From assembly GCA_916610825.1 (NCBI GenBank), contig OU744454.1:11287178-11351177 (forward strand): a DNA stretch of 64,000 bases, given 5' to 3'. This DNA is from Haliclystus octoradiatus (Eukaryota > Cnidaria > Staurozoa > Stauromedusae > Haliclystidae). Position 1 is the stretch's first letter. Every line of letters begins with the position of its first letter. This document shows positions 3,781 to 62,200 of the stretch, piece by piece. Made by a program: the position numbers and the translations under genes. The notes under the pieces are model-generated. The model was not told where the DNA came from, did no database searches, and saw only the letters and a program-made list of their open reading frames with translations.

Positions 3781-3890
3781 AGTTCATACTCTGTATTATA
3801 CAGCGATAGAAAGCTTAGTCAATTGTTTAATTATAAGTGATCTGAAAGTTTTATCATAGAAGGTCCATTATGGACTACACTCATAGCTAG
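3781..3890 (+). repeat. Copy 2 of the 110-bp dispersed repeat
   Basis: It matches 1-115 and 25719-25835 and forms the right end of segment D copy 1. It stops exactly where the A/C duplicated block begins (3891). Confidence 0.75.
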
Positions 3891-4513
3891 TAAAGACATA
3901 ATTCAGTTGTAAATACTGCTAGAAATATATGCGAATACACTATATGTGCCCTAACAGTAAGTGTATCTCTTTTTCAAGATACGCTTTGCTGTAATATGTG
4001 GTAATTTCTATCAGTGGATACACCTTGTGAAATGAAGCAATTAAACTAGCCTGAAATCGTATAAAAAGGTAAGCTGCAATTATAAACCTTTCTTTAAACA
4101 ATGTCATACGATACTTCATGTCTCTATTTTATTTTCCGCCATAATTATTCCAAGAACCAAGAACAATGCATTCAGCTGAAATCAAATTTTCGCAAAAACA
4201 AATATTTTGTCACAGTTTCTAATTATATTGTATATCTAGTTTCTTTTCAGATTATCTTGTGGATTTTAACGATTTTAGTAAATCTACTGAATTTCATATT
4301 TGCAATGTTAGTTATACTTCTACATAAGGCATAAAAAAAGACGGAGAAAACATAAAGAAGATATATCTAACCAACAGTAATGTGCAGTGACAAAAATATT
4401 GATAATAGCTCCCCAATATAATCAAGAGTCGAATACAACTCAGTCAAAGTGAAATGATAGCCAGCAGAACGTGCATAGGTAAGCAAATTGAGAAAATCAT
4501 GTCCTTCTCATAG

Positions 4514-4519
4514 TTTATT
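4514..4519 (-). promoter_or_regulatory. Poly(A) signal of gene A
   Basis: AATAAA on the minus strand lies 17 bases after the gene A stop codon (TAA at 4538-4536). Locus C has the same hexamer at 55703-55708, whereas the equivalent site in locus B has changed to ACAAAAAC. Function is inferred from sequence and position. Confidence 0.5.
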
Positions 4520-4535
4520 TGTTCATGTAAACTGA

Positions 4536-4795
4536 TTACTGTATTGTTGGCCTTATTTTCATTTCAGCTGCAGTTAGACTGCAACCACCCTTCCATGCCA
4601 TCCAAATTAGACCACTCCAATTACATGTTCCTGCGCTAGGGTCATAGTTATTCGTCAATACTGCATGAGCACACTGAATATACCACCATCCCCCAAAAAA
4701 TTGATCAGCACAATTAGTTGTTTTCTGATCGAAGTCATGATCAGTTGTGGTAAATCGCAAACTACTTTGGATACTGAACGAATCACCAGCATCAC
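4536..4795 (-). CDS. Gene A exon 8: FReD C-terminal part
   Basis: This 260-nt terminal exon has acceptor TTAATAG and stop TAA at 4538-4536. It starts GDAGDSF and contains the TTTDHDFD calcium-type loop, NCAD, GGWWYIQCAH with the second FReD disulfide, LIWMAWKGG and the closing MKIRP. The first 45 residues are the tract that differs sharply from copy C, whereas the rest of the exon has about one change. This part of FReDs holds the calcium site and lies next to the ligand pocket in ficolin and tachylectin structures. Confidence 0.9.
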
Positions 4796-7700
4796 CTATT
4801 AAACATAAGAAAATGTTTCCTTAGGTTGAAGATTACTAACTCATATGTGAAAATGTGAAAATTGTAATGTTTTAGATCACATCAAATTTAGTTGCAGGTT
4901 AAGTTGTTTGGATAAGATTGCTAGTAATTGATTCCTAAAATAGACACAATCTCACAATTGGTATCAACAGACTACAAGCATCCAGTTAGTCTAATATTCT
5001 TTCGATAATTACGAATACAATGGAAGCTGATGTTAATTCATTTCTTCTGTTGATAATTCTGTTTGGATTGTAAATAATTTTATCGAAACGCTACAGAATG
5101 TTCCTGCGCAATGTTTCTAACATTTCTATGTGTCAGTGGGTCGTGTTTCCCTAACAGCTATAAGGTACAGGCTAATTTCAGTGAAATCAGCCAAGACACA
5201 GCAGATCACTTCAGAAGCTGTCATTACATATAAGCAACGATTGTCAATTTCATTCATCCCACCTTCAGAAGACTGTACTATTTTGTTGTTGACATAAATT
5301 TCAATTCTCTGTAATCCTTTAGAGGAATTACATGACAAAATGTGATAAAATTTGAATTCGAGTTTTCTGCCATCTGATTAGCCAGCGTGTATATCTACTA
5401 TTTCCTTTGTCAAGCTTAGGGTCTGAGAAACGCTAGCAGCATCTTACTTCAGGATGACATTGCCGATTCCTAATGTAACTATGGCGCCCTCATTCGTTAC
5501 CAACTAAAATTGATTGAGTTTACAGAATTAATTCGATTCGATTGAAGCTACAGAATACGCTTCTTAGTTTTTTGTTGAACCATAGGAGCGTGAACTGAGA
5601 TTATGCCATCATTTTACAGAACAAATGTCGACGATGGACAACAGTAGGTATGCACGTAAGCTACCATCTCACCCGCACGCAAATCGAAATCAGTAAATTT
5701 GAAAGTTTAAAGAGACATAGGCTTCTGATCATTTAATGCTACTTAATGTTCGATAAATGTGTTCTCATTTACACAATGACTTGAGATTATGTGAGAATAT
5801 TGCGTTTCAATAAGTTTATCTGTATAGTGGAAGATATAGATTACAGTTAATATTATATACCTGAGTAGCCGTTCACGTATAATCGGTAATTATCAGTCTG
5901 ATCACTGACTGTAAACGTATCGTATTCAGCATATCTGTGTTCACTACCAAACCAAAGATCAATACGAAGGGTTTGTGCATTTTCTGCCGTCAGGCGATGA
6001 AGCTCATCTAAGCCGTACCAAAAATCTGAAGCGAAATCTCCGAATCCAGTTTCATAAAATTTTCTTTGCAGATAAAAGTCCTCGACGCCATCGATTCTTC
6101 TTAGAAACACAACCCAACCTGTAGTTGTATGAACAATAAATAAGATATGGAACAGTTCCAAATTGAACACTTTGGAACACAAAACTCATTGTGAAGGACC
6201 TTAAAATGCACATGATACAAAAAAATAGTTTTCCGGAATCGAGTAGCCCATGCAAATTGAAAAGGAATGGCGAAAATAATTTTTCTATTTGGACTGAGTG
6301 TTCCATCAAAAGTTAAAAGGTACAAGCATATCACACCAATTATCAAACACCTTCACTGGCTACCAGTTGCTGAACAAATCATTTACAAGATCTTACTCGT
6401 CACGTCCATATTGGTGAAACTTAATACTGAACCTAGTTATTTGAAAGAACTGATATCCCCGTATGTCATCACAAGAAATTTACGTTCTTCTAATAAAGGC
6501 CTATTACTTGAACCAAAGTACAAACCAATGTCTTATGGTGGCCGCAGATTCTCGTACCTAGTTCCAAAACATTGGAACGAACTTCCAGTTACAACTCGTG
6601 ACAGTTCGTCATTTTTTCCACTTCCCAGAACATATATGCCCACCTCTTAGGGACACCTTTTTGGCCATATATGACTGATATTGAACGTGATTTGTATATC
6701 TCTTTATAAAATAAAACTAATGAAACTTTCATTAAAACCCTAATATTAATCCCGTTCAATAGAATGTCACAGAAACACACTTCAATTTGTGATGCGAAAT
6801 GAATTCGAATCTCATGATTCGGCTATGACGAATGGTAAGCGGAAGAACAAGAACATTGCATCGGATAACAGTTCGACAATTCGTGTTTTCTTCAAATTAT
6901 TAAACGATACGGGTGATCCAACATGCACAGCGAAAGATTTGTAGATAACGTATATGAAATAAATTTTTATTTTAAAATCAAGAATTAAACACTTTCTTGT
7001 ACAAACACTCGTGTCTTGTACGGTGGATCTTGATTTTCTTACGCGTTTCTCATGCCTCGTGCAAAATTCGTGTTTATAGAACCTTTACTGCACAGAAAGT
7101 GTTAAATATTCATAGTAATATGGTATGTCATCCATATTCTCAAGCCTCAATTCCGTTTTCTTTTCATTTCTTGCTTATTTACCTGAATCGATACCTTCGT
7201 TGCATGTGATAAGTCTCTCCAGTTTCCCAATGCATGATAATCCGCCATGTTGTGGAGCTGGATTGGTACATGTTCGAGTTTCTATAACTTCTCCACGACC
7301 ACTAACCACAGTACAAGATCCTTGTTCCACCCAACCCGACCATACTCCATGAACTTAAATCGAATAATTAAATTTCTATTAAGATCCATGTGAATTCTCT
7401 AATTACCAAAATATCCCCCATGTATATCACATATTTAAATACACAAATACTTTTTTTTGTCAGATTACTGTACTTGTTAGTGTGAATTCGTAACTTGCTT
7501 GTGTTAAATGGTGTTACCTACTTTCAAAAACGTGATACTTCAACTAGTGATCGATATACTTGTGCACGTGATATCCGTATCGAAATACTCCACAATTTCT
7601 GAGCCCACTCATTGTTGAAGTATAAAGAGCGCCGTCAAGCAAAGCTGGGAAATCCTATATTGGGTTCAGATCGTATCGTATTTCAGCTTTATGATCGGGT

Positions 7701-10700
7701 GGACTTGAACAAAATATTTTTTTAATTAATGAACATTTCAAATAATTTGTAAGGTATCCTATGAATTAGACTTTGAATTACTATTTTGAAATTACAGTGG
7801 AAATTGAAAAATTAATATAGCATTTTATTCAAAATGTTTAATATATTTGAGATTTGGAGATAAAGCCTAACTCATATAAATTGTTTTCTTTAAAAGATAT
7901 TGGTTTAATCTAGGTATTCTACATAACTATATAGAGGTTCATTCTATGGTCATCAAGATTGATCAGGAAGAAAAGTGAACATATTATCCGTCTGTTTCTG
8001 TTTTGCCGTACAATAGTTTTAACATATGAATGAAATTAATTCATTTTGTGACATGTTAACCGAAAGATATGACCACAAATCTATTTTCTTATACAAGGTT
8101 TTCTTCTCTGTATTGCAAGAAAATTGACGTTTTTTGACGTCATTCGTGTTTTGTTTGAGGATCAAGCATATAATTAACAATAAAATGAATCGATCTGTTG
8201 TCGGTGAGAAATGTTCTATTGTAAAGAAGCTAGAGTATAAAAAAGTGAAAAACAAACGTTAACAAAGAAGGAAGAGGGATAACATTATGAAATTATTTTT
8301 GCCCGTATTGCTGATCTATTTGCTGAGTTACATAAGACCAGTGAACGACAATATGGTATTTTTGCCATACTACGTTTTAAGAATATTTTGTATAAAAAAT
8401 ATCTAGTTCAGGCATGTTCAATCTTACTTGGGCAAGGACTTTCATTACATACGAAAGTTATATTCGTATCGCCAACGCATTCCAATCCACCGTACTCTGG
8501 ACTAGGAGATGTGCATGATCTTGCATCTGATTTCACACCCCAACCGCAACTTGCACTACACGTAGTTTGAATCATCCAATTTGACCAGCCACCGTCCACT
8601 GAATTGAAAATAGAGACACACTTCAATTATACAACTTATTTAATACTATGAACCATGTATGCAACAAAGGTGGTTAGGAAGTACTCTTATGTGATGACAT
8701 ATTTGCTTCGATACACATAGCATATTTAGCCTGGAGTAATGGAATCGAATTTTATGTACCGTTAATCCTGGTTTCAATATTAGATAATTTCCTGTGGCAC
8801 CGCCAAGGATTGTGTTAGATAGATAGATCATATATTTCAAACGTATTAAAGGAAGATACAAAATTGCAAAAGATAACATTGAATCAAATATGACAATTAC
8901 TGTACATAATATTAGGCTAGATAATCACAATGATGAATATAATATGTTTGGCGTGACTCCTGAAGCATGGGATCGAGTTTGTTTGTTTGGAATACGTGAT
9001 TAAGGCAATTTCTTACATAACATTTTTTAATATGAGTTATTGGTTAGAAGATCAAACTGTTTATAGATTGAAACGATTGGGTATTTAACGATGATTGAGT
9101 TAATATACAAAATAATACAAAAAAATAAAATAAGATAAAATAAAATAAAATAAAAAGAGGTACCAAAATTTGTAAATCAGAAGCAAAGTTAGGATCATAA
9201 ATTACGTGATTTAACTGACTTGATTGTTACTATTCATCTAATCATCATTTTCCTAATTTACGATATTCTTAATTAGTTCAAAAACTTGCTAAAATTGTAC
9301 AATTTAACTATCTGACTTTTCACCCCAACATTGGTCTAGGTTTCTTTGATTTTATAACATATTTTGTTTGGTTCATAGTTATCCTAGTACACTTAATTGC
9401 CTTTACTTGTTTAGAAATGTTTATCCTACTCATCTCATTCTCAAAACAAAGTCCCTATAGCGGATATGTGTAATTTTATGCCATTGATACAAAGATAACT
9501 TGCGTAAAGACCAAAAATAAATATAATAATATAATATGGAAACATATCATTATTAATTAAGTAAGAGGATAGAAAGAAATAAACAACTTATTTTCAAACA
9601 GGTACCAAACGGATTTTTAAGGATATGCACTAACAGTTGAAAGCAGTATCAATATTTCTAAACTCCTCACATTTTTCAAAACACTTTCTCAACATTGATA
9701 TTAGAGAGATGCAACCTCACCCCATACATACACGACGGCGCTATTGCTTGGCTTTGGTTGACCATTGAATACTATTTCTCGACTTTTGATTATGAATCAA
9801 CATTCTAAATTATGAATCTCGATGAACTAATCTTCTGCTCAGATATAGAACTATGTTAACATATTTCTTTATTTGCCAATATTGATTATCATTGATGTTC
9901 GTATAGGCGTTAAAGAGATTATTGCAACAAGCATGTGCAACTATCCGGAGAAATAACGAAGTATGAAGTGGCCATTTTTATGATAGTAATGATTCATAGC
10001 CAGTAGGTTTGATGAATTATTTTATTATTTTACTACATATCATTTTAAACTTTGTAGTACTTTTAATTTGATTCCAAAAATTGCATAACTTAATGTCGTG
10101 CTTTACGTATACAATTATACTGACAAGTTAATAAATGAGACATGTGTAGCGGAATCCTCTAAATAATTAGTCTGCGTTGCAGACCGCGATTAATTCACAA
10201 TAGAATAGGGTCTGTGTGATTTGCACAGTTTTCTGTCCAGCCACTCTACGAAAACGTAGAGCGGAAGTTTCTGATCGATGCATGGTAAATTTATTGTTCT
10301 TAGATAATTAATTCATCACCTCTATTCGATCAATTAATTGTCATAGCTACGGAGCCTAAAATAGAACTTATTGCAATCATGTCAACTGAAGTGAGCAAAG
10401 TAATGTGAGAATCCCGTTGAGAATCACCTTAATCTTGCATAATTATGTGACATCAATCTTATTCTGATACGAGAACCGGACAGAGAAACCGAGCAATTCA
10501 CACAGACCCTATTCTTTTGTGAGTGATTCGCGGTCTGTACCGCAGGCTAGTATATAATTTGCTGCTGGCTAGTCCAGGAGTTGGTTTTTTGTGTTCCTAT
10601 GTTGAAATGTATTAGTAAATTGAAACATTGAAGCAAAACACATTTGTTGACAGTTTTCTCCATAGCGAAGTTAGCATTATATTTTGATTGTAGTTGATAT

Positions 10701-13700
10701 TATTCATCTAATCATCATTTTCCTTAATTTGACATGTCATATATTGTTAATTAGTTCAATAACTTGCTAATATTTACAATTTAATTGTTTGAGTTTTTGA
10801 AACTTTTGTATTGTTAGCTTAACCACAGCATAGGTTAAACAGAATAATGCAACAAGGACGCGCAACTAGCCCGAGAGATAATGAAGCATGAATGTCGGCA
10901 ACAACTGTCTACGACCATTATATGTCATCCTTAGGTACAGTTAACATATAACATTGAAAATGTAAAAGGACACATAGTAATATTACCTGGGCAGTTAAAT
11001 GTGTTGCAAGGTATAATTTTATTTGACTCTCCAGCGCAAGGTTGACCACCATTTGAAGGTGACGGGCTGTCACATGATCGAATTGCTGTCATATCTCCAC
11101 CATTGCAAGACACGGAACATGCCGTAACATTTTGCCATGATGACCACCCTCCGTCGACTGTAGAAAAATTGAAATACTAAGAATGTCTTCTTTCAGTTGA
11201 AATATATGCCTCGTTTTGAAACATATATACAAAATTCCTACTACATAGGGTTCCAATATATCACTCTCTGGTGCGAATTCATCATACGGAGTTCGCTATG
11301 GCATATATGATGAAAGTAGTGCTCAATGCATATCAAAACTAGTAGAAAAACATCCTAGGACGATGGTACTCAAATTGATCACAAAGGTGACCGAAAGGTG
11401 TGAAAATCGAAGCGACCATCACAAAGTAACGGAGTCTGCCTTGCTGTCATTTCGGAAAGGCAAATTTTGTCGGGAGCTCCATAATCCTGCATTTGATATG
11501 GTACTTACTTACTTTTTATCGTAACTGAAATCACTTTTCATATAGATTCTACGATTTAATTTCTGCGAAGCAGCTGTCGCGTCTTCTAATCATTCAAATC
11601 AATCATTTTCCAGTAGGCAAATAAATCAAGAGCCTTTATCCATATGTTCTTGGTGTGGCTTCTATCAACATGGAATTGTATAATCAAAATTTGCTTTGTT
11701 TCTCTTCCTTTCGTCAGACTACTAACGATATAAATGAACTTGTACAACAAAAATGTTTACCCTTGAATTTCCAAGCACATGGACCAGCTAATCAAACTGC
11801 GTGACTACGTTCGGTTAATACGTCATATCTTAGAATAAAGGTTTACTGCACGGCAGCCGTCTTTGGTTTTTCCGATACCAACACGCGGGATGTTAGGAGA
11901 CACAAGAAAGCATCAGAAATACAAGAGCCCGTAGGGCAAGTGTTTTTCAGCTTTCGAGTGTCTCCCAACATCTCAAGTGTTAGTATCAGAGAACCCAAAC
12001 ACAAGGCTGCTGTGCAGTAACCCTTTTGTGAAATGAAACATATTTTTACTATTTTAAAACGAATTTAACATAAAAGATTTGACTGATTAGATCAATTTTC
12101 TCCTATAAATCTTCACGTCTTCGTCATATTTTGCCTTTCTTCGAATCACAGATCCAGGGTTCTACTTTCGAAACACTTTCGATTCTTTCGAACGCTATGA
12201 TTTTGATCTGTCTTGTTTCTCATTTCTGCTGTGTCGCAAGCTTTTGTCGGTTTTGTAGGGCATTTTTGTCTCGGAATAGCCACCATAACATAACAAATGA
12301 AGCAAAGAAGAAGGCCTTGAATTTTTATACCGTACTGTGAAATATATATCATCAACGATGTTAATGATGCAATTTTCTTATTTGCAATTATTTAGAAATT
12401 TTGGATGTTTTTTCTCTCATGTTGTCGAAGTTCTTTTGGCTTGCGTGATCCAAACACGGGATTAAGCCAATCAAATCACTAAAACAGCATTCAAAAATCT
12501 GTTGAGTTTTACAATACTTATTGCTTCAAAATGAGGTATCTTGTCAACCCAGCCACGGTTCCAAAATTTCAAAAATTTTCCATGTAGAAATTTTCAATTC
12601 CAGCATTCAACAGATTACTTTAAGAGGTGTGAAATCAAAATTGATTGACAGGAATGTTCGAATCTATCTGGAATAAAATATTATTGCTGTCATGTGAACT
12701 CTAATCTGCAATCAATCATAAAAGGATTATTGTACGTCATATCAGCATAGATATATACATGTGCATTCATAACGACATCTTAGACATGAAAATTACAACT
12801 ATAATGTTCAGTTTAATGATCATGCACACATGTATTGTTGTATAACGAATTGCAAAGAAAAAACATTTTGAAACAGCAGAATGTAGTGTTTCCTTTACGA
12901 ATTAATAAACACTAAATGTCAAATTCAAAGACATAAATAGTCCATACCTGAACATGGCGGCAAAACACAATTTGTTGTTCTGCTTGTATTTCCAAAGCAG
13001 CTAATCCCCCCGTGTGCTGGAGCAGGAGTTGAGCAGGTTCTGGATTGGTTTCTTATTCCAACACTGCATGTCACTGAGCATGGAGCATCTCCCCAAGCTG
13101 ACCATTGACCATGGACTGTCGAGTAACAGTAATGTATATGTTATTATAGAATCTTCAAACATTGTCCAAACATTGCATATGAATATTATACACATATATT
13201 AGGTAATTGTTTGGGAAAAACATCAATTTGAGTGCTCAATGCTAAAAGCAGAGCAATAGAAATAGTAGATCAAATATCACCATTTAATCCACTACTACCG
13301 TTATGCGTGTCTCAGAGTAACAGTGTAAACTCGAGAACTTTGATCTACTATTTGTGTTTTCAATCAGTGAAATTAGATGTTATGTTTCATCTTTGAGGAA
13401 TGATATAGGTACATGGATGTTCTAAAAATGCAATACTCCCAAATTTAATATGAAGCGCTTCAACTACATGAACGTTTCGCTGCTCAATGTATACTATATC
13501 TAACTTTGATGGCAAAATTTGCTTTGAAAATTAAAAATCTGGAAATACATAGATACTACCGTCTGTAGAAACAATGTTTAATGTTATAAAATGCAAATTT
13601 TCAGCGATGGCATCAGAGGAGGATAGGAGCGATAAAATCCCCCTGTTATGGAACCCAGTCCCCTCGTAGTAGAGGCATTTTATACTTTTTCATATATTTT

Positions 13701-25838: not shown

Positions 25839-27269
25839 ATAATAATAATAATATTGTTGATTTAATAAATAAATAAATTTATTTATTAAGAGAAAAACAT
25901 CATTATAGTGGTCAATACTGGTAACTAGGGATGTATAGATATAATATAAATATAGGTATAAAATAAGAAACGAGACGTTTTGTACGTTACTCGAAGTTTC
26001 GCTATGTAGAGCTCCTCAGACGGTTTTATTCATGTAAAAAAACATTTCAAATTCACCAAAGATATATACATGATTAAAGTTTATACGCCTGTTGATTAAA
26101 TTGTTGTTCTATTGTTATTTGCAGCTATGTTAGTTTCCATAGTTAATTATGATATGCTATTGTTCTATTTATGCTTTATCTTCCTTGAAATTTTTCAAAT
26201 ATAACTTGCTTTCGTGCAGACATTTAGAAACCAGCTCAAACCAGAAAAGGATTTTCAATTGACTTAGGCCTTGAGCTCAGGTTTTACTTAAATTTAGATT
26301 GATGCATGTAATTCTTTGGGATTTTTGGTTTCGGAATATTTATGTCATTAAATGCAGAAGTAGAATCTTCAAAACTTCGATATCTCTTTCATTTCTGATC
26401 GGATCGGCTTCAGTTGATAAACATCAGAAGAAATATTTTAGTAGAAATCCAATAATCATGAAATCGGCAGTTGCGTGACAGTACCGGACAATTTTATCGG
26501 AATTAATTATATATGACTAAAATTGATTTTGAAATTTATTTTAAAATTGAACTGGAAATATCTCAAATTCGTAAAATATTCAATCATTCCATGTATGCGA
26601 TCCCATCAACTGAAATGTGAACAAACGAAATACAGTCCTAGCAGATACATTTTTATTTTTATATGAGATTAATCAGTTGTGAAAATTGTTTGAAACAATA
26701 TATCTAAAAATTGAAAGGAAACGAAATTGTCCAAATTTTGACTACGTACGATAACACATTTGCATTGGTGGCACCAGGATATCCCTGACACATTAGAGCT
26801 AACTTCCCCGACGTTGAGGGTAGTTTTTAGAAAATATTTGCAAAGATGCTTGGAAAGTATATAACTCTTCCCCGAGTAGAAGGCTAAGAATCCTCAACAT
26901 GCATCCCTCTTTTCCTCATATGGTGTCACCCCTGAATGTCTACATTTTTGAACGTTAAATCATTTTTATGCAGTCTCGATGGATTCCCAGATTTTGAACT
27001 TCGAAGCAAGTCTTTCGCTTGTGTATAGTCTACATTGAGCAGCGAAATTTCATGTAGTTGGAATGCTTTATAATAGGTTTACGGAGTACGGCACTTTTAG
27101 AAAATGTTTCATGTACAAATTATTCCTCAAAGATGAAAAATAGCATCTAGTTGTAATAACTTGACAATGTGCTGCTCATTATGGATTGTGTTTTCACTGT
27201 TTGAAGATTTATTTTTGAATGTTCTCTATACTTTTATTTAATGTCATATACATTACTGTTACTCGATAG
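25839..27269. other. Flank/intron upstream of locus B exons
   Basis: From about 26,750 the sequence matches, inverted and diverged, gene A intron 2 (about 13,200-13,900). No first exon, signal peptide or microexon counterpart was found upstream of 27270. Confidence 0.45.
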
Positions 27270-27437
27270 TCCATGGTCAATGGTCAACTTGGGAAGATGG
27301 TCCATGCTCAGTGATATGCGGTGTTGGATTAAGAACCGAATACAGAAACTGTTCAAATCCAGCTCCAGCACACGGGGGGGTTAGCTGCTCCGGAGATATA
27401 ACAAAAACAACATCTTGCATCTTGAATTCATGCTCAG
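27270..27437 (+). CDS. Locus B exon: TSP1 repeat a
   Basis: This 168-nt phase 1-1 exon has acceptor CGATAG and donor CAG|GTATGG. It opens VHGQWSTW, then PCSVICGVG, with six cysteines. It is the counterpart of 12948-13115 in gene A. Confidence 0.8.
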
Positions 27438-33400: not shown

Positions 33401-34703
33401 CTTGGTTAAAACTTTCCAATTTACTGATTTCGATTTACGTGTGGATTAGATGGTAGCTTTTGTGCATACCTACAGTTTTCGTTTGTTAAAGTAGGTTCTG
33501 CGAAACGATGGCATAATCTCAGTTCAAGTTCATGAAAAACTGTGAAGATCAATCAGCTTCAATCGAATTGAAGTCATTCTGTTAACTCAAAACATTTTCC
33601 TTGGTCACAAAGGATTGCGTCGTCGTCTTTTGAAGTCTGCGAACTGAGATTCTGCTAGAATTCAAGTTTGATCACTTTTGGTCGTCTATAATTGTTAATT
33701 CCTCTTAGGACTACGGGGAACTGAATTTTTTGTCAACAAGCAGATGAGTACTGTCTTCTGAAGGTGGGATGAATGACATTGACAATCGTTGCTTATATGT
33801 AGTGAAAGATTTCAAAGTGATCTGCTGTGCCTTGCATGATATCACAAAACATAGCATGTACAGTTGTTGCTGTTAAGGAAACGACCCACAGACATATAGA
33901 AATATTAGAAACATTGCACAGAAAAATTCTGTAGCGTTTCGATTAATTTTTTATATGATTCCAATTATTTACAATGCAAACAGAGTTATCAATAGAAAAA
34001 TGGTTTAAAAATCAGCTTGTCCATTATATTTGTTTTTTATTGAAAGAGATTATACTAACTAGATGTATGTAGTCTGTTGATACCAATTGTGGGATTGTGT
34101 CTATTCTAAGAAACAGTTACTAGCAGTCTTATGCGAAGAATGCATTTTGTTTGAAATAAACTGGACAAGAATTTCAATTTTATATCTAACTTGCAGAGAA
34201 GACTATTTTCTAACAAACTGCTAAATTCCCAATTGTGTATATCATTGTGCATTTTTCTTGATTTCTATTTGTTCTTACTAAATAGAGATTTATGTTTACT
34301 TTAGAAAAAGCTATCCATACAAATTAACCTGCAACTTAATTCGATGTAGCCTAAAATCGTATGATTTTCACATAATTTATTGATATATCACTTGCAAGTT
34401 AGTAGTCTTCAACCTAAGGAAACTATTTTCTTTTGTTTAATAGGTGATGCTGGTGATTCGTTCATTATCCAAAGTAGTTTGCGATTTACAACAACTGATC
34501 ATGACTTCGATCAGAAAGAATATAATTGTGCTGATAGATACGAAGGGGGATGGTGGTATATTCAGTGTGCTCATGCAGTATTGACTAATAACTATGACCC
34601 TAACGCAGGAACATGTAATTGGGGTGGTCTCATTTGGATGGCATGGAAGGGTGGTTGCAGTCTAACCTCAGCTGAAATGAAAATAAGGCCAAAGATTGAC
34701 TGA
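27270..34703 (+). CDS. Locus B: TSP1 x3 / fibrinogen-related gene (5' end not found)
   Basis: Five exons share phases and order with gene A on the opposite strand: 27270-27437, 28563-28733, 30131-30301, 32980-33237 and 34444-34703. All junctions are phase 1 with AG acceptors and GT donors, and there is no internal stop. The counterpart of TSP1b is missing. Introns are strongly diverged from gene A and differ in insertions, but the FReD-N exon differs by only three residues, which suggests constraint. No signal-peptide exon was recognised upstream. The poly(A) hexamer found in A and C is mutated here. The locus is either a functional gene with unseen 5' exons or a partial copy. A secreted recognition protein is inferred by homology within the window. 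Confidence 0.7.
28563..28733 (+). CDS. Locus B exon: TSP1 repeat c
   Basis: This 171-nt phase 1-1 exon has acceptor ATTCAG and donor CAG|GTAAGA. It opens VDGGWSNW, then TTCSASCGGGG, with six cysteines. It is the counterpart of 8428-8598 and keeps the G at the end of the exon that A and C have lost. Confidence 0.85.
30131..30301 (+). CDS. Locus B exon: TSP1 repeat d (two cysteines lost)
   Basis: This 171-nt phase 1-1 exon has acceptor TTTAAG and donor CAG|GTAAAT. It opens VDGGWSDWIEQGSC. As in A and C, the second cysteine is replaced (CTVVSG) and the terminal one is absent (CDEGINS). The loss therefore predates the split of the three loci. Confidence 0.8.
30302..32979. other. Locus B intron between TSP1d and FReD-N
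   Basis: Flanks match gene A's corresponding intron inverted. The middle (about 31,080-32,780) is unlike A, which has the LINE fragment there. I see no element ends or exons in it. Near 31,830-31,900 the phrase ATATATCATATTTT is repeated. Confidence 0.4.
32980..33237 (+). CDS. Locus B exon: FReD N-terminal part
   Basis: This 258-nt phase 1-1 exon has acceptor ATAAAG and donor CAG|GTATAT. It encodes GWVVFLRRIDGVEDFYRQRK and the same FReD core as gene A. Three residues differ from A (R for L, N for T, H for Y). Confidence 0.9.
34444..34703 (+). CDS. Locus B exon: FReD C-terminal part
   Basis: This terminal exon has acceptor TTAATAG and stop TGA at 34701-34703. It starts GDAGDSFIIQSSLRF, then TTTDHDFDQKEYNCADRYEG, GGWWYIQCAH and MKIRP. 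It has the same length as in gene A (260 nt). The calcium-type loop up to DFDQK equals gene A, while the residues just after it (EY, RYE) differ from both A and C. Confidence 0.9.
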
Positions 34704-35020
34704 GAAGCATACATCAGCCAACAAAAACTATGAGAAGGACATGATTTTCTCAGTTTTCATACTTATGCACTGGCTGTTGGTTATGATTTCACTTTGACAG
34801 AGTTGTATTTTACTCTTGATGTCACTGCACATTATTGTTGGTTTACATATATGTATTCTATGTTTGCTCTGCCTGTTTTTCTGTCTTATGTAGAAGTTCT
34901 ACTAATATTGCAAATATAAAAATCACAGAATATACTGAAATCACTAAAAATAACGATGTATTTGAATTCTTTTTCTATCGTTTTTTGTTGAAATATGCTA
35001 TGAGAACGGTGGGCCACCAT

Positions 35021-36415
35021 AGGTGTGTATGTAAAACATTTTAAATGTTCAGCCTGTGTACCTATAGCAAGGGTGTTTACGTAAAACAGTTCGAATATCA
35101 AGTCTGTGTACCTATAGCAAGGGTGTGTATGTAAAACATTTTAAATGTTCAGCCTGCGTACCTATAACAAGGGGGCTTACGTAAAACATTTTGAATATCA
35201 AGCCTGTGTACCTATAGCAAGGGTGTGTATGTAAAACATTTTAATTGTTCAGCCTGTGTACCTATAACAAGGGGGTTTACGTAAAACATTTTGAATATCA
35301 AGACTGTGTACCTATTGCAAGGGTGTGTATGTAAAACATTTTAATTGTTCAGCCTGTGTACCTATAACAAGGGTGTTTACGTAAAACAGTTTGAATATCA
35401 AGCCTGTGTATGTAAAACATTTTAAATGTTCAGCCTGTGTACCTATAGCAACGGTGTGTATGTAAAACAATTTGAATATAAGAGAATGTACCTACAGCTG
35501 GGGCATTACATAAAATATTTTGAATATTAGGCCTGTGTACCAATAGCAAGGGTGTGTATGTAAACATTTTAAATATTAAGCCTGTGTACCTATAGCACGG
35601 GTGTGTATGTAAAACATTTTAAATGTTCAGCATGTGTACCTATAGCAAGGGGGTTTACGTAAAACATTTTGAATATCAAGCCTGTGTACCTATAGCAAGG
35701 ATGTTTACGTAAAACATTTTGAATATCAAGACTGTGTACCTATAGCAAGGGTGTTTACGTAAAACATTTTGAATATCAAGCCGGTGTACCTAAAGCAAGG
35801 GTGTGTATTTAAAACATTTTAAATGTTCAGCCTGTGTACCTATAACAAGGGGGTTTACGTAAAACATTTTGAATATCAAGCCTGTGTACCTATTGCAAGG
35901 GTGTGTATGTAAAATATTTTAAATATTAAGCCTGTGTACCTATAGCAAGGGTGTGTATGTAAAACATTTCAAAATTGAGCCTGTGTACCTTAGCAAGGGT
36001 GTGTACGTAAAACGTTTTGAATATAAGATAATGTACCTAGAGCTGGTGCATTACATAAAATATTTTAAATATTAAGCTTGTGTACCTACAGCAAGGGTGT
36101 GTACCCATAGCAAGAGTGTGTACGTAAAACATTTTAAATATAAGAGAATGTACCTAGAGCTGGGGCATTACATAAAACATGTTGAATATTACGCATCTGT
36201 ACCTACAGCAAGGAGAGTGTGTACGTAAAACATTTTGAATATAAAAGAATGTACCTAGAGCTGGGGCATTACATAAAACATATTGAATATTAAGTCTGTG
36301 TACCTATAGTAAGGGTACGTACGTAAAACATTTTAAATATGAGGCCTTTGTACCTACAGCAAGGGTGTGTACGTAAAACATTTTAAATATGTGCCTTTGT
36401 ACCTATAGCAAGATT
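35021..36415 (+). repeat. 50-bp minisatellite with two alternating unit types
   Basis: About 28 units of 50 bp follow locus B. One type reads GTGTGTATGT...TTAAATGTTCAGCC and the other GTGTTTACGT...TTGAATATCAAGCC. Both end CTGTGTACCTATAGCAAGG. In the first half they mostly alternate, giving a 100-bp higher-order unit. Toward the right end units become degenerate, and a third form with ATGTACCTAGAGCTGGGGC and CATTACATAAAA appears. There is no coding sense. It begins about 320 bp after the locus B stop and has no counterpart next to A or C. Confidence 0.9.
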
Positions 36416-37496: not shown

Positions 37497-37501
37497 TAAA
37501 T

Positions 37502-37517: not shown

Positions 37518-37528
37518 TTGAATTAACA

Positions 37529-43920: not shown

Positions 43921-43929
43921 CATCTTTGG

Positions 43930-45725: not shown

Positions 45726-45766
45726 GAGATTATTTTGATGAATTAAATTTTGTATGTGGTATAGAA

Positions 45767-54510: not shown

Positions 54511-55077
54511 AGAATAGAGAAAATGTTATCATTAAAGGGTAGAAGTATAATAATTGGACATTTCAGGAGGGGAGAAATTATGAGGTCGTGCTAATTTTTT
54601 AAACGATATACGAAAGGATGGGGATTTATATAAATCATAAAAATAAGTACGAATCACACTGCTCGCCTAGACAGAATCGCCCTGTCCGCCTTGAAAGAAT
54701 CATAATCTTCAACTAAAAAGGGCTTGTGGGGTGGCTTCATATAGCCTCTGTAAATTAGATATGCAATATCCAGTTTGAAAGTATTAATACATGTATATGT
54801 GTGGTCTCTATATAATCACGTAATTAGGTGAAGAAAAATGAAGTCAAATGTTTGAATGTACAGTTTTTATGTAAATTTACAAATGGGAACAACGTTAAAA
54901 AAATGAAGTTATATAAAATTTCTGGAAATGTTTTTCAAAAAGATTCATCAAAGCATTGGCAACTTCCTTATAATTGGATAAAAGCATGTATATGTAGAGT
55001 ATTGCATGTCAACGTTTCTGATTTCAAATGATTAATACGATTAACATTTATTGTACTTCTTTTACTGTTTAGCGCTA
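54511..55077. other. No gene seen
   Basis: Unique sequence up to the left edge of duplicated block C. Confidence 0.45.
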
Positions 55078-55702
55078 TAAAGACATAATTCAGTTGTAAA
55101 TACTGCTAGAAATATATGCGAATACACATTATGTGCCCTAACAGTAAGCTGTATCTCTTTTTCAAGATACGCTTTGCTGTAAATATGTGGTAATTTCTAT
55201 CAGTGGATACACCTTGTGAAATGAAGCAATTAAACTAGCCTGAAATCGTATAAAAAGGTAAGCTGCAATTATAAACCTTTCTTTAAACAATGTCATACGA
55301 TACTTCATGTCTCTATTTCATTTTCCGCCATAATTATGCCAAGAACCAAGAACAATTCAATCAGCTGAAATCAAATTTTCGCAAAAACAAATATTTTGTC
55401 ACAGTTTCTAATTATATTGTATATCTAGATTCTTTTCAGATTATCTTGTGGATTTTAAAGATTTTAGTAAATCTACTGAATTTCATATTTGCAATGTTAG
55501 TTATACTTCTACATAAGGCATAAAAAAAGACGGAGAAAACATAAAGAAGATATATTTAACCAACAGTAATGTGCAGTGACAAAAATATTGATAATAGCTC
55601 CCCAATATAATCAAGAGTCGAATACAACTCAGTCAAAGTGAAATGATAGCCAGCAGAACGTGCATAGGTAAGCAAATTGAGAAAATCATGTCCTTCTCAT
55701 AG

Positions 55703-55708
55703 TTTATT
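55703..55708 (-). promoter_or_regulatory. Poly(A) signal, locus C
   Basis: AATAAA on the minus strand, 17 bases after the locus C stop codon, identical to gene A. Confidence 0.5.
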
Positions 55709-55724
55709 TGTTCATGTAAACTGA

Positions 55725-55987
55725 TTACTGTATTGTTGGCCTTATTTTCATTTCAGCTGCAGTTAGACTGCAACCACCCTTCCATGCCATCCAAATTAGA
55801 CCACTCCAATTACATGTTCTTGCGCTAGGGTCATAGTTATTCGTCAATACTGCATGAGCACATTGGATATACCACCATCCCCCCTTGAAATGATCAGCAC
55901 AATGCATTGAAGTATGACTATCGAAGTCATTATCAGTTGTTGAAAATTCCATATTACTTTGAGATTTGAACGAATCACCGGCATCAC
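55725..55987 (-). CDS. Locus C exon: FReD C-terminal part (divergent tract)
   Basis: 263 nt, one codon longer than A and B. It starts GDAGDSFKSQSNMEFSTTD, then NDFDSHTSMHCADHFKGG. From GGWWYIQ onward it returns to near identity with A (one G/R change). The calcium-type DxD pattern, the two cysteines and the closing MKIRP are kept, so the fold should be intact although about 13 of 40 residues are replaced and one is added. Confidence 0.9.
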
Positions 55988-58900
55988 CTATTAAACATAA
56001 GAAAATGTTTCCTTAGGTTGAAGATTACTAACTCATATGTGAAAATGTGAAAATTGTAATGTTTTAGATCACATCAAATTTAGTTGCAGGTTAAGTTGTT
56101 TGGATAAGATTGCTAGTAATTGATTCCTAAAATAGACACAATCTCACAATTGGTATCAACAGACTACAAGCATCCAGTTAGTCTAATATTCTTTCGATAA
56201 TTACGAATACAATGGAAGCTGATGTTAATTCATTTCTTCTGTTGATAATTCTGTTTGGATTGTAAATAATTTTATCGAAACGCTACAGAATGTTCCTGCG
56301 CAATGTTTCTAACATTTCTATGTGTCAGTGGGTCGTGTTTCCCTAACAGCTATAAGGTACAGGCTAATTTCAGTGAAATCAGCCAAGACACAGCAGATCA
56401 CTTCAGAAGCTGTCATTACATATAAGCAACGATTGTCAATTTCATTCATCCCACCTTCAGAAGACTGCACTATTTTGTTGTTGACGTAAATTTCAATTCT
56501 CTGTAATCCTTTAGAGGAATTACATGACAAAATGTGATAAAATTTGAATTCGAGTTTTCTGCCATCTGATTAGCCAGCGTGTATATCTACTATTTCCTTT
56601 GTCAAGCTTAGGGTCTGAGAAACGCTAGCAGCATCTTACTTCAGGATGACATTGCCGATTCCTAATGTAACTATGGCGCCCTCATTCGTTACCAACTAAA
56701 ATTGATTGACTTTACAGAATTAATTCGATTCGATTGAAGCTACAGAATACGCTTCTTAGTTTTTTGTTGAACCATAGGAGCGTGAACTGAGATTATGCCA
56801 TCATTTTACAGAACAAATGTCGACGATGGACAACAGTAGGTATGCACGTAAGCTACCATCTCACCCGCACGCAAATCGAAATCAGTAAATTTGAAAGTTT
56901 AAAGAGACATAGGCTTCTAATCATTTAATGCTACTTAATGTTCGATAAATGTGTTCTCATTTACACAATGACTTGAGATTATGTGAGAATATTGCGTTTC
57001 AATAAGTTTATCTGTATAGTGGAAGATATAGACTACAGTTAATATTATATACCTGAGTAGCCGTTCACGTATAATCGGTAATTATCAGTCTGATCACTGA
57101 CTGTAAACGTATCGTATTCAGCATATCTGTGTTCACTACCAAACCAAAGATCAATACGAAGGGTTTGTGCATTTTCTGCCGTCAGGCGATGAAGCTCATC
57201 TAAGCCGTACCAAAAATCTGAAGCGAAATCTCCGAATCCAGTTTCATAAAATTTTCTTTGCAGATAAAAGTCCTCGACGCCATCGATTCTTCTTAGAAAC
57301 ACAACCCAACCTGTAGTTGTATGAACAATAAATAAGATATGGAACAGTTCCAAATTGAACACTTTGGAACACAAAACTCATTGTGAAGGACCTTAAAATG
57401 CACATGATACCAAAAAATAGTTTTCCGGAATCGAGTAGCCCATGCAAATTGAATAGGAATGGCGAAAATAATTTTTCTATTTGGACTCTTATAAGCTGAG
57501 TTATTTAATGTTCAATGTACCATATTTCAGACAAAGTGTTCCATCAAAAGTTAAAAGGTACAAGCATATCACACCAATTATCAAACACCTTCACTGGCTA
57601 CCAGTTGCTGAACAAATCATTTACAAGATCTTACTCGTCACGTCCATATTGGTGAAACTTAATACTGAACCTAATTATTTGAAAGAACTGATATCCCCGT
57701 ATGTCATCACAAGAAATTTACGTTCTTCTAATAAAGGCCTATTACTTGAACCAAAGTACAAACCAATGTCTTATGGTGGCCGCAGATTCTCGTACCTAGT
57801 TCCAAAACATTGGAACGAACTTCCACTTACAACTCGTGACAGTTCGTCATTTTTTCCACTTCCCAGAACATATATGCCCACCTCTTAGGGACACCTTTTT
57901 GGCCATATATGACTGATATTGAATGTGATTTGTATATCTCTTTATAAAATAAAACTAATGAAACTTTCATTAAAACCCTAATATTAATCCCGTTCAATAG
58001 AATGTAACAGAAAAACACTTCATGTGATGCGAAATGAATTCGAATCTCATGATTCGGCTATGACGAACGGTAAGCGGAAGAACAAGAACATTGCATCGGA
58101 TAACAGTTCGACGATTCGTGTTTTCTTCAAATTATTAAACGATACGGGTGATCCAACATGCACAGTGAAAGATTTGTAGATAACGTATATGAAATAAATT
58201 TTTATTTTAAAATCAAGAATTAAACACTTTCTTGTACAAACACTCGTGTCTTGCACGGTGGATCTTGATTTTCTTACGCGTTTCTCGTGCCTCGTGCAAA
58301 ATTCGTGTTTATAGAACCTTTACTGCACAGAAAGTGTTAAATATTCATAGTAATATGGTATGTCATCCATATTCTCAAGCCTCAATTCCGTTTTCTTTTC
58401 ATTTCTTGCTTATTTACCTGAATCGATACCTTCGTTGCATGTGATAAGTCTCTCCAGTTTCCCAATGCATGATAATCCGCCATGTTGTGGAGCTGGATTG
58501 GTACATGTTCGAGTTTCTATAACTTCTCCACGACCACTAACCACAGTACAAGATCCTTGTTCCACCCAATTCGACCATATTCCATCAACTTAAATCGAAA
58601 AATTAAATTTCTATGAAGATCCATGTGAATTCTCTAATTACCAAAATATCACCCATGTATATCACATATTTAAATACACAAATACTTTTTTTGTCAGATT
58701 ACTGTACTTGTTAGTGAGAATTCGTAACTTGCTTGTGTTAAATGGTGTTACCTACTTTCAAAAACGTGATACTTCAACTAGCGATCGATATACTTGTGCA
58801 CGTGATATCCGTATCGAAATACTCCACAATTTCTGAGCCCTATCATTGTTGAAGTATAAAGAGCGCCGTCAAGCAAAGCTGGGAAATCCTATATTGGGTT

Positions 58901-59832
58901 CAGATCGTATCGTATTTCAGCTTTATGATCGGGTGGACTTGAACAAAATATTTTTTTAATTAATGAACATTTCAAATAATCTGTAAGGTATCCTATGAAT
59001 TAGACTTTGAATTACTATTTTGAAATTACAGTGGAAATTGAAAAATTAATATAGCATTTTATTCAAAATGTTTAATATATTTGAGATTTGGAGATAAAGC
59101 CTAACTCATATAAATTGTTTTCTTTAAAAGATATTGGTTTAATCTAAGTATTCTACATAACTATATAGAGGTTCATTCTATGGCCATCAAGATTGATCAG
59201 GAAGAAAAGTGAACATATTATTCGTCTGTTTCTGTTTTGCCGTACAATAGTTTTAACATATGAATGAAATTAATTCATTTTGTGACATGTTAACCGAAAG
59301 ATATGACCAAAAATCTATTTTCTTATACAAGGTTTTCTTCTCTGTATTGCAAGAAAATTGACGTTTTTTGACGTCATCCGTGTTTTGATTGAGGATCAAG
59401 CATATAATTAACAATAAAATGAATCGATCTGTTGTCGGTGAGAATTGTTCTATTATAAATAAGCTAGAGTATAAAAAAGTGAAAAACAAACGTTAACAAA
59501 GAAGGAAGAGGGATAACATTATGAAATTATTTTTGCCCGTATTGCTGATCTATTTGCTGAGTTACATAAAACCAGTGAACGACAATATGGTATTTTTGCC
59601 ATACTACGTATTAAGAATATTTTGTATAAAAAATATCTAGTTCAGGTATGTTCAATCTTACTTGGGCAAGGACTTTCATTACATACGAAAGTTATATTCG
59701 TATCGCCAACGCATTCCAATCCACCGTACTCTGGACTAGGAGATGTGCATGATCTTGCATCTGATTTCACACCTCCACCGCAACTTGCACTACACGTAGT
59801 TTGAATCATCCAATTTGACCAGCCACCGTCCA
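55725..59832 (-). CDS. Locus C: 3' half of a TSP1-FReD gene
   Basis: Four exons in order 59832-59662 (TSP1c), 58588-58418 (TSP1d), 57310-57053 (FReD-N) and 55987-55725 (FReD-C) keep phase 1 joins and open frames, as in gene A. Upstream exons are not present. The block ends 333 bp upstream of the first of these exons, where a LINE and a Gypsy fragment follow to the window edge. The gene is either a truncated duplicate or has its 5' part beyond 64 kb. It differs from gene A mainly in FReD-C and at a few residues of the two TSP1 exons. Those changes keep the frame, which argues against simple decay. Confidence 0.7.
57053..57310 (-). CDS. Locus C exon: FReD N-terminal part
   Basis: 258 nt, phase 1-1. 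I see no difference from gene A exon 7. Starts GWVVFLRRIDG. Confidence 0.9.
57508..57963 (+). mobile_element. LINE 3' fragment in locus C intron
   Basis: This is the same CR1/L2-like RT C-terminal fragment as 6285-6727 (HITPIIKHLHWLPV to LVPKHWNELP). Here the 5' junction is preserved: the flank GGACTCTTATAAGCTGAGTT is also found in locus B (inverted, near 32,775), which marks the insertion point at about 57,505. Confidence 0.8.
58418..58588 (-). CDS. Locus C exon: TSP1 repeat d
   Basis: 171 nt, phase 1-1. It opens VDGIWSNWVEQGSC, where gene A has VHGVWSGWVEQGSC. These are four nucleotide changes within about 20 bases, all replacing amino acids. The remainder appears identical. It shares the loss of cysteines 2 and 6. 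Confidence 0.8.
59662..59832 (-). CDS. Locus C exon: TSP1 repeat c
   Basis: 171 nt, phase 1-1. It equals gene A exon 5 except GGG in place of GWG after the third conserved position (CSASCGGGVK). Six cysteines are present. Confidence 0.85.
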
Positions 59833-60165
59833 CTGAATTGAAAATAGAGACACACTTCAATTATACAACTTATTTAATACTATGAACCATGTATGCAACA
59901 AAGGTGGTTAGGAAGTACTCTTATGTGATGACATATTTGCTTCGATACACTTAGCATATTTAGCCTGGAGTAATGGAATCGAATTTTATGTACCGTTAAT
60001 CCTGGTTTCAATATTAGATAATTTCCTGTGGCACCGCCAAGGATTGTGTTAGATAGATAGATCATATATTTCAAACATATTAAAGGAAGATACAAAATTG
60101 CAAAAGATAACATTGAATCAAATATGACAATTACTGTACATAATATTAGGCTAGATAATCACAAT

Positions 60166-62200
60166 AGATAGATAGTATTTATTTCAATCAATGTAACAAG
60201 GTATATAAATACAAAGTAAAATTTACAGGTTTTCTAATTTACAGTGATTGTGGTCATCCCGTAAGCATGAAAGCTTGTTTATTGTTTATTGGGAGACACA
60301 AATTATTTATATTTCAATTATCTGGCAATGAATTAGATATGCATTGAAAAGAAAAGTAAGAATAAGAATAGGATTAGAAATAATAAAAAATAAAGAAGGT
60401 AATACAGTATTCAATTATATGAAAGGAAACATCGAAATATGTTGACTGGTTGATAGAAAAAATAAAAATATATAAGTAATTAATGAAAGCTAAGTAGTGA
60501 GTTGTTGGCATACGTAGCAGTCCGTTATTGTACAAGTCGTGGTATATGTATCATGTAAAGACTTTTGGATAAAAATCCTAAGGCTTGCTGTTGTTGGTTC
60601 AAACTTAAGGATTGACTTTTGGAAGTTCCATAGTACAGGAAGTATGTGGCTAGGGAGGTGATGAAGGAAAGTGCTCTTAGCAAAAGGTACGAAAAAAGTA
60701 TTGCCTCTGCGAGTTTTGTTATCAATGAAATTGAAAATTGTGTTCGTGGTCTCAGCTGATTTTGCAGACAAGGTTTTGTGAAGAAAGGTTAATGATTTCA
60801 ATATGTAGAGATCATGGAACTTCAAGATATTTAAAGCCTTGAGCAATGGCTCAGTGTGAGTTAGTGGTTTACAATTAACTATTATCCTTACACACTTTTT
60901 GTGTAATGTATTAAGTTTCCTGCAATTTGAGGAATGACCCCAAATAGGTAAGCCGTATTCGATGTGGGGTTTAACAATTGAGGAATAAATTTGGGCTTTA
61001 TGTTTTTTGGATAAAAATTTTTTTAGTTTGATCAGGGTGTAACATAGGGATCGAATCTTTTTACATACATAATCCACATGGATTTTCCAATTTAATTTTT
61101 CTCCCATCATCAGACCTAAAAATTTTACATGTTTCTCTTTTTGATTGTGACCACATCTTTCAATCAAGGTATGGTTTATTTGAATTTTAATGTCAGTGTG
61201 TGGTTGGTTGAAAAGAATAAATTTGGTTTTAGCCTCATGTAATGTGAGTTGATTAGCATTGAACCATTTAGAGATAACATTCAGTTCTGCATTTACTTTC
61301 TCTTGGAGAATAATTGGGTTGTTATCAGACCATTGCAAAGTTGTGTCATCAGCAAAAAGGTTGACATTGAATTTAGTGGAGGATGGTAAATCGTTGATAA
61401 AAATTAAAAAGAGAAGAGGCCCCATCATGCTTCCTTGCGGGACACCACAAGTGACAGTTGCGGGCGAAGATAGATTATCATTTAAGGATACAATTTGATT
61501 TCTGTTTGACAATTAATTAGTAAACCAAACTAATGCGTGGTTAGAAATTCCATAGTGAGATAATTTAGCTAATAGAATGTTGTGATTAACAGTGTCAAAT
61601 GCCTTTTTGAGATCAATAAATATGGCAATATGATATTTATCATTTGGGTTTGAAAATATGTTATGTAAAAAATTTAAAAAGCAATCGGTTGTTTCGTAGA
61701 ATTTTTGAAAACAAAATTGGAATTTAGTAAGGAAACATTCTTGGAAATAATAATATAATTGGTTGTAAGCGACACGTTCTAAAATTTTTGAAAAGGTAGA
61801 AATGATTGAAATTGGCCTGTAATTGGATAGTAAATGAGGGTCTCCCTTTTTAAAAAGAGGTAAGATTTTTGCAAGTTTGTAATTTTGAGGAAAGAAGCCT
61901 GTTGTTAAGGAGAGGTTTATGAGGTAGGTTAACGGAGAGATAATTTCATGGTATATAGATTTCGGACATGAGCTTGAGACAAAGTCAAAAGCAGAACTTG
62001 ACTTGTTTTGTAGTTTGCCAATTACCTTTTCTACAGTAATTTGAGAAACTGGCTTGAAAATAAAAGATTTGTCATCATTTGGAGGTAAAAAAAGTTTGAA
62101 ATCATCATTGGATTGGAAATGATGTGCAAGATTTTGACCAACATTTATAAAATAATCATTGAAAGCATTAGCAATGGTGATTGGATTTGAAATTTTTGTG
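60166..62200 (-). mobile_element. CR1/L2-like LINE, 5'-truncated
   Basis: The minus-strand reverse transcriptase is open from 62238 to 60490 except for one in-frame TAA (61515-61513). Motifs in order are ILPLFKKGDPHLLSNYRPIS, FIDLKKAFDTVNH, GVPQGSMMGPLLFLIFIND, the catalytic FADD in NLFADDTTL, and KFLGLMMGEKLNW. The C-terminal domain ends with CYVCQQ. The endonuclease is missing. The 3' end is a short (ATCT)n-like tail, typical of the CR1/L2 group. It inserted at the point where copy C stops matching copy A. The 5' end joins a Gypsy LTR near 62200. Confidence 0.9.
60490..62200 (-). pseudogene. LINE reverse transcriptase with one in-frame stop
   Basis: About 570 codons of RT and C-terminal domain are broken only by a TAA between ALVWFTN and SNRNQIV, just before the conserved GVPQGS block. 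No frameshift was found. The copy would not make full-length protein but must be young, since the rest is clean. Confidence 0.85.

Follow-up and report, generated by a model that had tools for sequence, protein, structure and literature searches.

Probable gene conversion across the predicted calcium loop and pocket helix of a duplicated FReD gene in the stalked jellyfish Haliclystus octoradiatus

The TSP1-FReD locus and its duplicated gene

The window, that is, the whole stretch of DNA analysed here, comprises 64,000 nucleotides of chromosome 9 of the stalked jellyfish Haliclystus octoradiatus (Cnidaria, Staurozoa; assembly jrHalOcto1.1, C11:11287178-11351177). The mitochondrial COX1 of this genome has 97% identity to a Myostaurida record. 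The DNA source for this assembly was mid-body tissue, and the genome report, in the part cited here, gives HiFi data at 68-fold, a QV of 56.6 and a status of 'not fully phased' (PMC9975415). Two copies of a minus-strand gene of ~5 kb, termed A and C, are arranged as direct repeats, with the inverted paralogue B between them. Paralogue D is located 22.9 kb past the window end, at a distance of ~31 kb from C, whose orientation it shares. The features are as follows, in window coordinates unless C11 is given.

3886..8934, minus strand: copy A, TSP1-TSP1-FReD gene block (self-BLAST, two pieces matching C at 98.0 and 98.4%)
8429..8599, minus strand: first TSP1 exon of A (tblastn)
7184..7354, minus strand: second TSP1 exon of A (tblastn)
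5859..6125, minus strand: FReD-N exon of A, profile match range (PF00147 match)
4536..4795, minus strand: last exon of A, C-terminal half of the FReD and stop codon (open frame, splice acceptor, protein match)
4636..4797, minus strand: stretch of A homologous to the tract in C, apparently not converted from D (27/162 aligned bases differ from C and from D)
55074..60169, minus strand: copy C, TSP1-TSP1-FReD gene block, probable recipient (self-BLAST; Pfam TSP_1 twice and Fibrinogen_C)
59663..59833, minus strand: first TSP1 exon of C (tblastn; Pfam TSP_1, E 3.4e-07)
58419..58589, minus strand: second TSP1 exon of C (tblastn; Pfam TSP_1, E 5.6e-05)
57051..57317, minus strand: FReD-N exon of C, profile match range (PF00147 match; coding sequence identical to A)
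55725..55987, minus strand: last exon of C, C-terminal half of the FReD and stop codon (open frame, splice acceptor TTTAATAG/GT, protein match)
55825..55989, minus strand: putative converted tract in C at its maximal extent, 165 bases identical to D (longest run of C-D identity, 0 mismatches)
57635..59234 in C and 6397 to about 8000 in A, minus strand: block common to C, A and D (pairwise differences)
34443..34697, plus strand: FReD-C exon of B, inverted paralogue between A and C (open frame, profile and protein match)
32976-33251: FReD-N exon of B; 28562-28732 and 30130-30300: TSP1 exons of B
C11:11374053-11374307, minus strand: FReD-C exon of paralogue D, on the same chromosome as C (protein match)

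The exon order is two TSP1 domains followed by a FReD split over two exons, with consensus splice sites around the FReD exons. The domain matches Pfam PF00147 with 145.9 bits against a cut-off of 22 (E 2e-42; profile positions 43-220); the located exons have no match to the first ~42 positions of the profile, and a signal-peptide exon was likewise not located. Both exons directly upstream of the FReD are TSP_1 and not IgSF, a statement that covers these two exons. Given that D has open FReD-N and FReD-C frames, consensus splice sites at both and both TSP1 exons, the nearer one ~9 kb upstream of its FReD-N exon, it looks like a gene rather than a fragment. Single TSP1-like exons are also present elsewhere in the window (tblastn; 10988-11158, 12952-13116 and 27269-27433), and no FReD was identified with them.

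A search of the 262-Mb genome (33 contigs) with the DNA of the C exon returned ten matches, every one on chromosome 9. The close matches lie at 11.23-11.37 Mb (C itself, D at 97%, A at 90%, B and F at 86%, and E at 79%), and the remaining four, at 66-68% identity, are located at 11.97-12.51 Mb. Counting exon-level stretches rather than genes, we obtained at least 155 matches to PF00147 in the genome (150 of 491 candidates scored) and at least 150 matches to the last-exon protein (among 217 candidates); the FReD family is therefore very large. Within it, B (28335-34820) and F (L072, C11:11253000-11262000) are near copies, with one replacement change in FReD-C, two in FReD-N and 97.5% identity in the intron directly upstream of the last exon, and constitute a second young duplication within the cluster that also holds A, C and D.

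Repeats are frequent around these genes. Direct repeats of 303 bp (37194-37496 and 48046-48348) differ by one mismatch and enclose long open frames at 37508-47887, including frames in reverse orientation at 40556-44943; we take the region 37194-48348 to hold long-terminal-repeat retrotransposons, one nested in the other. Just past the right edge of C, an ATAG-repeat stretch is followed by minus-strand open frames (60490-62247, within the region 60170-62247). These frames are presumably reverse-transcriptase-like and part of an apparent LINE-type element, close to whose end the duplication ends. Plus-strand open frames in the TSP1-FReD intron of both copies (A 6261-6650, C 57472-57888) presumably represent a remnant of a non-LTR element, and C carries 46 extra bases relative to A at 57488-57533. 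Tandem arrays are found at 35022-36419, starting about 0.3 kb after the last exon of B (~50-bp unit, about 28 copies by length, with longer periods of 81-218 too), and at 50192-50694 (93-bp unit, 5.4 copies, 93% matches).

Judged by the intron adjoining the last exon, which differs by about 0.5%, C is a recent duplicate of A. An earlier, sequence-only reading of this DNA had described a hypervariable tract in an otherwise near-identical duplicate, and the alignment bears this out. Over their full length (A 3886-8940, C 55074-60175), the copies differ by 86 substitutions, 83 of them within the duplication; 27 of these 83 fall at A 4674-4788 and C 55863-55980 (115 bp of A), together with a 3-nt insertion in C. 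When the 83 sites were placed uniformly in 20,000 shuffles, no 115-bp window held more than 13. The coding sequence of the FReD-N exon is free of differences and the adjoining intron has five substitutions in 1,058 aligned bases, both as that reading had stated; its extra codon is likewise present, and its count of about 29 substitutions has to be lowered to 27. Its estimates of about 13 replaced residues and few silent changes also agree with our data: 13 residues are replaced and one is inserted within exon codons 8-35, and the Nei-Gojobori method yields 20.7 replacement and 5.3 silent changes for codons 7-35. Despite the tract, the reading frame, the D-x-D residues and the cysteines are conserved between A and C, again as claimed, and so is the splice acceptor.

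A tract of D-type sequence in copy C

The C-type tract is also present in D. C and D are identical over 165 consecutive bases (C 55825-55989), whereas they differ at 241 of 1294 sites upstream, including 182 of 810 in the intron (22.5%), at 13 of 95 sites in the remainder of the last exon and at 55 of 235 downstream (23%). At sites that distinguish A from D, counted in ungapped columns of a five-way alignment of A, B, C, D and F, C carries the D-type base in 24 of 24 cases in the tract, as compared with 2 of 269 elsewhere. C and D match at 34 polymorphic sites in a row, a run equalled in none of 2000 permutations. Among informative quartet sites, the grouping of A with C (against B with D) prevails over that of A with B (against C with D) by 93:1 upstream and 20:0 downstream, whereas the tract gives 0:16. 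The shortest tract explaining the A/C differences spans 55863-55980, corresponding to exon codons 3-42. Only part of the exon moved, given the 13 C-D differences in its remainder; the sequence-only reading had named a donor carrying the whole C exon between equally diverged flanks as evidence against itself, and D is not of this kind.

The site of the anomaly is indicated by the other copies. A and D diverge in the tract (27/162; 16.7%) nearly as much as upstream of it (234/1246; 18.8%), C-D divergence drops from ~20% to 0, and B and F are mostly A-like at the 24 diagnostic sites (A-type 16 and D-type 4 in B, A-type 17 and D-type 4 in F). The anomaly therefore resides in C, and the transfer was from D to C. 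Since the D-type tract is present in both C and D and the A-type is absent from D, the exchange was non-reciprocal. Identity in the tract with diverged flanks on both sides, and a tree conflict confined to the tract, are the marks by which gene conversion is recognised. Transfer, direction and ends can all be read from the assembly, as represented by one haplotype of one animal, and the tract may be polymorphic. We therefore consider it very probable that the tract difference between A and C was caused by non-reciprocal ectopic gene conversion from D to C, covering 118-165 bp at the start of the last exon. The unseen paralogue from which the sequence-only reading had thought conversion possible can thus be named: D lies on the same chromosome and has no mismatch to C across the tract. 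The absence of C-D differences in 165 bp does not date the event tightly.

A further block is common to D and both copies. It surrounds the second TSP1 exon over 1.6 kb, and for A 6400-7999 the differences are 25/1596 between A and C, 28/1600 between A and D and 19/1596 between C and D; outside it, A-D and C-D differences amount to 10-16 per ~100 bases (A 8000-8299; 13-15 for C-D directly past the right end of the block) and about 19% in the FReD half. By these counts the block records another exchange, in which D and the A/C pair took part, and this indicates that the D and A/C loci have exchanged more than once. A cluster of A/C differences at 7335-7351 was considered as a short D-to-C tract and rejected; it lies inside this block, where A, C and D are within 1-2% of each other, and its differences are partly A-specific.

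The predicted ligand surface across the FReD family

In FIBCD1, Asp393 and Asp395 bind the Ca2+ ion together with two main-chain carbonyls, those of residues 397 and 399, beside the Cys401-Cys414 disulfide, and the acetyl pocket comprises Tyr405, His415, Tyr431 and Trp443, as given in the cited part of the report (PMC3908420). We transferred these residue numbers by spacing and by alignments of tachylectin-5A, ficolin and tenascin. On this basis, the Asp pair is assigned to exon codons 21 and 23, followed by the predicted Ca2+ loop (codons 24-29) and the first Cys (codon 30, or 29 in A). The predicted pocket helix, which includes the position of Tyr405, takes up codons 33-35, and the cis-peptide Cys region codons 42-44. 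Both pairs are present (D21 and D23, Cys29/30 and Cys42/43); the Asp-Cys spacing in A equals that of FIBCD1 and is one residue longer in C and D. The tract leaves the Asp pair, the Cys and GGWWY unchanged, and the stretch converted in C is thus predicted to encode the Ca2+ loop and pocket helix of the FReD. The conserved acetyl-pocket residues were not found at the assigned positions: position 405 holds Phe (A, C and D) or Tyr (B), position 415 Ala and position 431 Asn or Asp. An acetyl ligand can therefore not be assumed. The Trp443 position falls beside hypervariable codon 72 (ungapped spacing, tachylectin-5A alignment of L054), and among 27 FReD-C exons (L041-L067) several hypervariable codons (24-35, 41-42, 67 and 72) lie at or beside the FIBCD1 Ca2+ loop and acetyl pocket positions.

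Selection was analysed with our own implementation of a codon model, which behaved as expected in null simulations, on 21 of the 27 aligned FReD-C exons. C was left out as converted, F as a near copy of B, L049 as a near copy of L048, and L064, L066 and L067 as distant; codon 28 was dropped, being gapped in 9 of the 21 sequences. M2a was favoured over M1a with a 2dlnL of 135.6, 12% of codons having an omega of 6.3; when the hypervariable codons were kept out of tree building, 2dlnL and omega rose to 157.9 and 7.7. The largest 2dlnL in null simulations on the first tree (n=25) was 1.75. Codons 9, 24, 25, 26, 27, 33, 41, 42, 67 and 72 had a posterior above 0.8 in both runs, and the minimal tract contains eight of the ten. 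The model fit shows tract codons to be under diversifying selection across the FReD family, although the test assumes a single tree for genes that recombine, which can inflate the result, and for this reason we give the effect size rather than a P value. Pairwise omega among A, B, D and F was 0.74-1.23 in codons 7-35, versus 0.09-0.30 for FReD-N and 0.17-0.30 for the remainder of FReD-C, with B-F set aside for having no silent change. Pairs with E lacked a clear contrast (0.64-0.79 in the rest of the exon versus 0.40-1.42 in the patch). Pooled pN/pS for codons 24-29 and 33-35 was 1.68 in 13 sister-cluster genes versus 0.80 in A, B, D and E.

A second FReD cluster is located at C11:11.9-12.5 Mb, with one further member on C10. 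The 27 loci form 351 pairs, and in eight of these the upstream introns reach 94% identity or more. Five of the eight differ in codons 24-35 (positions out of 12: A/C 7, L050/L056 9, L050/L057 6, L054/L061 8, L056/L057 8); for the four of the second cluster, whose upstream introns are 96-97.5% alike, this means 6-9 of 12 positions and per-site differences of 0.31-0.58 for replacement and 0.09-0.17 for silent changes. The other three pairs are nearly alike in the loop (B/F 0, L048/L049 0, L052/L055 2), which rules out a loop difference as a rule for every close-backbone pair. L048 (C11:12456289) and L049 (C11:12514058), 58 kb apart, have the same last exon and flanks identical at 99.8% (400 bp upstream) and 100% (300 bp downstream), and are a very recent duplication.

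Four quartets were counted in the second cluster. For L054, L061, L056 and L057, the upstream intron supports L054+L061 by 88:0, whereas codons 24-31 support L054+L056 by 7:0; codons 32-85 give 6 sites for L054+L061, 4 for L054+L056 and 1 for the third grouping, and in the downstream flank L054+L056 has 19 sites, L054+L061 has 4 and the third 2. When L050 replaces L057, L054+L061 is favoured by 67:1 upstream and L054+L056 by 9:0 at codons 24-31, where one site backs the third grouping; codons 32-85 give 2, 5 and 1 sites for L054+L061, L054+L056 and the third grouping, and the downstream flank 1, 5 and 5. In the quartet without L056 (L054, L061, L057 and L050), codons 24-31 are free of conflict (2:0) and the conflict is downstream (3 versus 20 for another grouping); the quartet with L047 and L058 has a single informative site at codons 24-31, which conflicts. 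The change of partner between the upstream intron and codons 24-31 therefore points to the same loop on different gene backbones. This conflict between backbone and patch resembles that of C and D but is less clean: it extends past the loop, the downstream flank also switching partners. P values from a GENECONV-type scan of this cluster were set aside (40 of 45 pairs at 0/4000 permutations) because rates vary strongly along the alignment.

Origin of the tract and related systems

Two other causes proposed by the sequence-only reading, strong selection and a local mutator, have to be weighed against conversion. Point-by-point positive selection on C after duplication would fit the excess of replaced residues over silent changes and the positively selected codons found at the same place family-wide. 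However, D already has every C-type base of the tract, the extra codon and the silent differences (codons 3, 41 and 42) included, and chance convergence at 24 of 24 sites is impossible; identity with D thus refutes a site-by-site origin of the A/C difference, to which we attach practically no probability. Selection accordingly stands as a family-wide force (2dlnL 135.6-157.9) and falls as the builder of this tract. A mutator or a retro-template system resembling diversity-generating retroelements might be suspected to rewrite the loop, given that in the sister cluster several hypervariable codons have the form NNT or NNC, their third base being fixed. Yet simulated selection alone reproduces such an asymmetry between codon positions: in a test on 14 codons in 10 sister-cluster genes, where the relative acceptance rate of silent changes was assumed to be one tenth, extra states were 24/23/15 against a null mean of 24/25/12.7 (P=0.87). 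The signature of diversity-generating retroelements, i.e. positions 1 and 2 changed and the third spared beyond selection, was thus not found in the sister cluster, and the donor for C is an ordinary paralogue. The A/C difference requires no local mutator, and such a system is extremely unlikely. The earlier interpretation is thus supported in part: it holds for conversion and, family-wide, for selection, whereas selection did not build the A/C tract and a mutator is unnecessary there.

The remaining alternatives accept the link between C and D. It could be argued that the C-type state was inherited together with D and that A was converted instead, from a B- or F-like gene. Indeed, a block at the intron-exon border (about 56025-55943 in C-coordinates) is unusually similar between A and both B and F; in permutation counts uncorrected for multiple pairs, this block was equalled in 1 of 2000 (A-F, best settings) and in 2, 21, 29 and 82 of 2000 in others (82 being A-B at the worst settings), and besides A-C and C-D no other pair fell below 83 of 2000. 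This likeness, which covers the start of the exon and the bases directly upstream, may reflect an earlier exchange in which A also took part, so that A may not be wholly pristine. As the origin of the tract difference, however, conversion of A is very improbable: in the tract, A and D diverge nearly as much as in the flank, C-D divergence vanishes exactly at the tract, and A and B also differ in codons 24-35 (9.2 replacement changes in 27 sites). Nor was a close donor for the A patch found by a DNA search with A 4672-4792, which returned F at 90%, B at 89%, E at 83%, and D and C at 78%. An assembly or consensus chimera, in which D sequence was put into C during assembly or polishing, is slightly less improbable and still most unlikely. 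C and D are paralogues in one cluster of an incompletely phased assembly, but the HiFi depth and QV quoted above (PMC9975415, in the part cited) speak against such an error, which would require two switch points no more than 165 bp apart with A-type flanks retained; the similar, if less clean, conflict in the second cluster also argues against it.

Gene conversion from D to C would have proceeded by repair of a break in C from D, in the germ line of the sequenced animal's ancestors, and would have made C an A-type lectin that bears the Ca2+ loop and the pocket helix of D. Such conversion could shuttle variants of a selected recognition surface between neighbouring genes, and selection for ligand recognition might favour these transfers. 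To our knowledge, cnidarians are without antibodies. At this locus, the donor, the recipient and the ends of the tract are resolved for a predicted recognition surface that moved between lectin-like genes, and the same codons appear under strong diversifying selection in the family in which the surface moved. Given that only 165 bp need to be compared, the frequency, recency and selection of such swaps can be tested cheaply across individuals or in the second haplotype. Conceivably, stalked jellyfish maintain a cassette system in the germline, and perhaps partly in somatic cells, with short conversion tracts falling preferentially on the hypervariable FReD Ca2+ loop and pocket helix and surfaces traded among more than 100 loci faster than backbones change; we regard such a system as rather unlikely.

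Gene conversion in immune gene families is already known; new are the site, the architecture and the lineage. No report of FReD-pocket conversion in a cnidarian was found among the matches listed from titles and abstract beginnings of the open-licence PMC literature, and a survey of cnidarian recognition receptors mentions fibrinogen once in the part cited, as a marker of extracellular location (PMC8260672). In the cited parts of the respective reports, the APL1 genes of Anopheles (PMC9222773) and the 185/333 genes of sea urchin (PMC3091723) likewise exchange sequence between related genes, which raises diversity at selected sites; in H. octoradiatus, by comparison, donor and recipient are resolved and the tract lies on the predicted Ca2+ loop and pocket of a cnidarian FReD. 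The FREPs of snails are recognition proteins and contain a FReD, as do A, C and D, and in Biomphalaria glabrata their diversity is attributed to gene conversion and point mutation, with some FREPs reportedly diversifying somatically (PMC12074976, in the part cited), whereas the change described here is seen in a genome assembled from mid-body tissue. Snail FREPs join the FReD to IgSF domains (PMC7588048, likewise in part), in contrast to the two TSP1 exons just upstream of the FReD in H. octoradiatus. With ficolins, tachylectin-5A and FIBCD1, the proteins share the FReD by sequence (Pfam and PDB matches), and with FIBCD1 also two Asp and two Cys at the Ca2+ and pocket positions, in A at FIBCD1 spacing (PMC3908420, in the part cited); unlike these lectins, A-D have Phe or Tyr at the Tyr405 position, Ala at His415 and Asn or Asp at about Tyr431.
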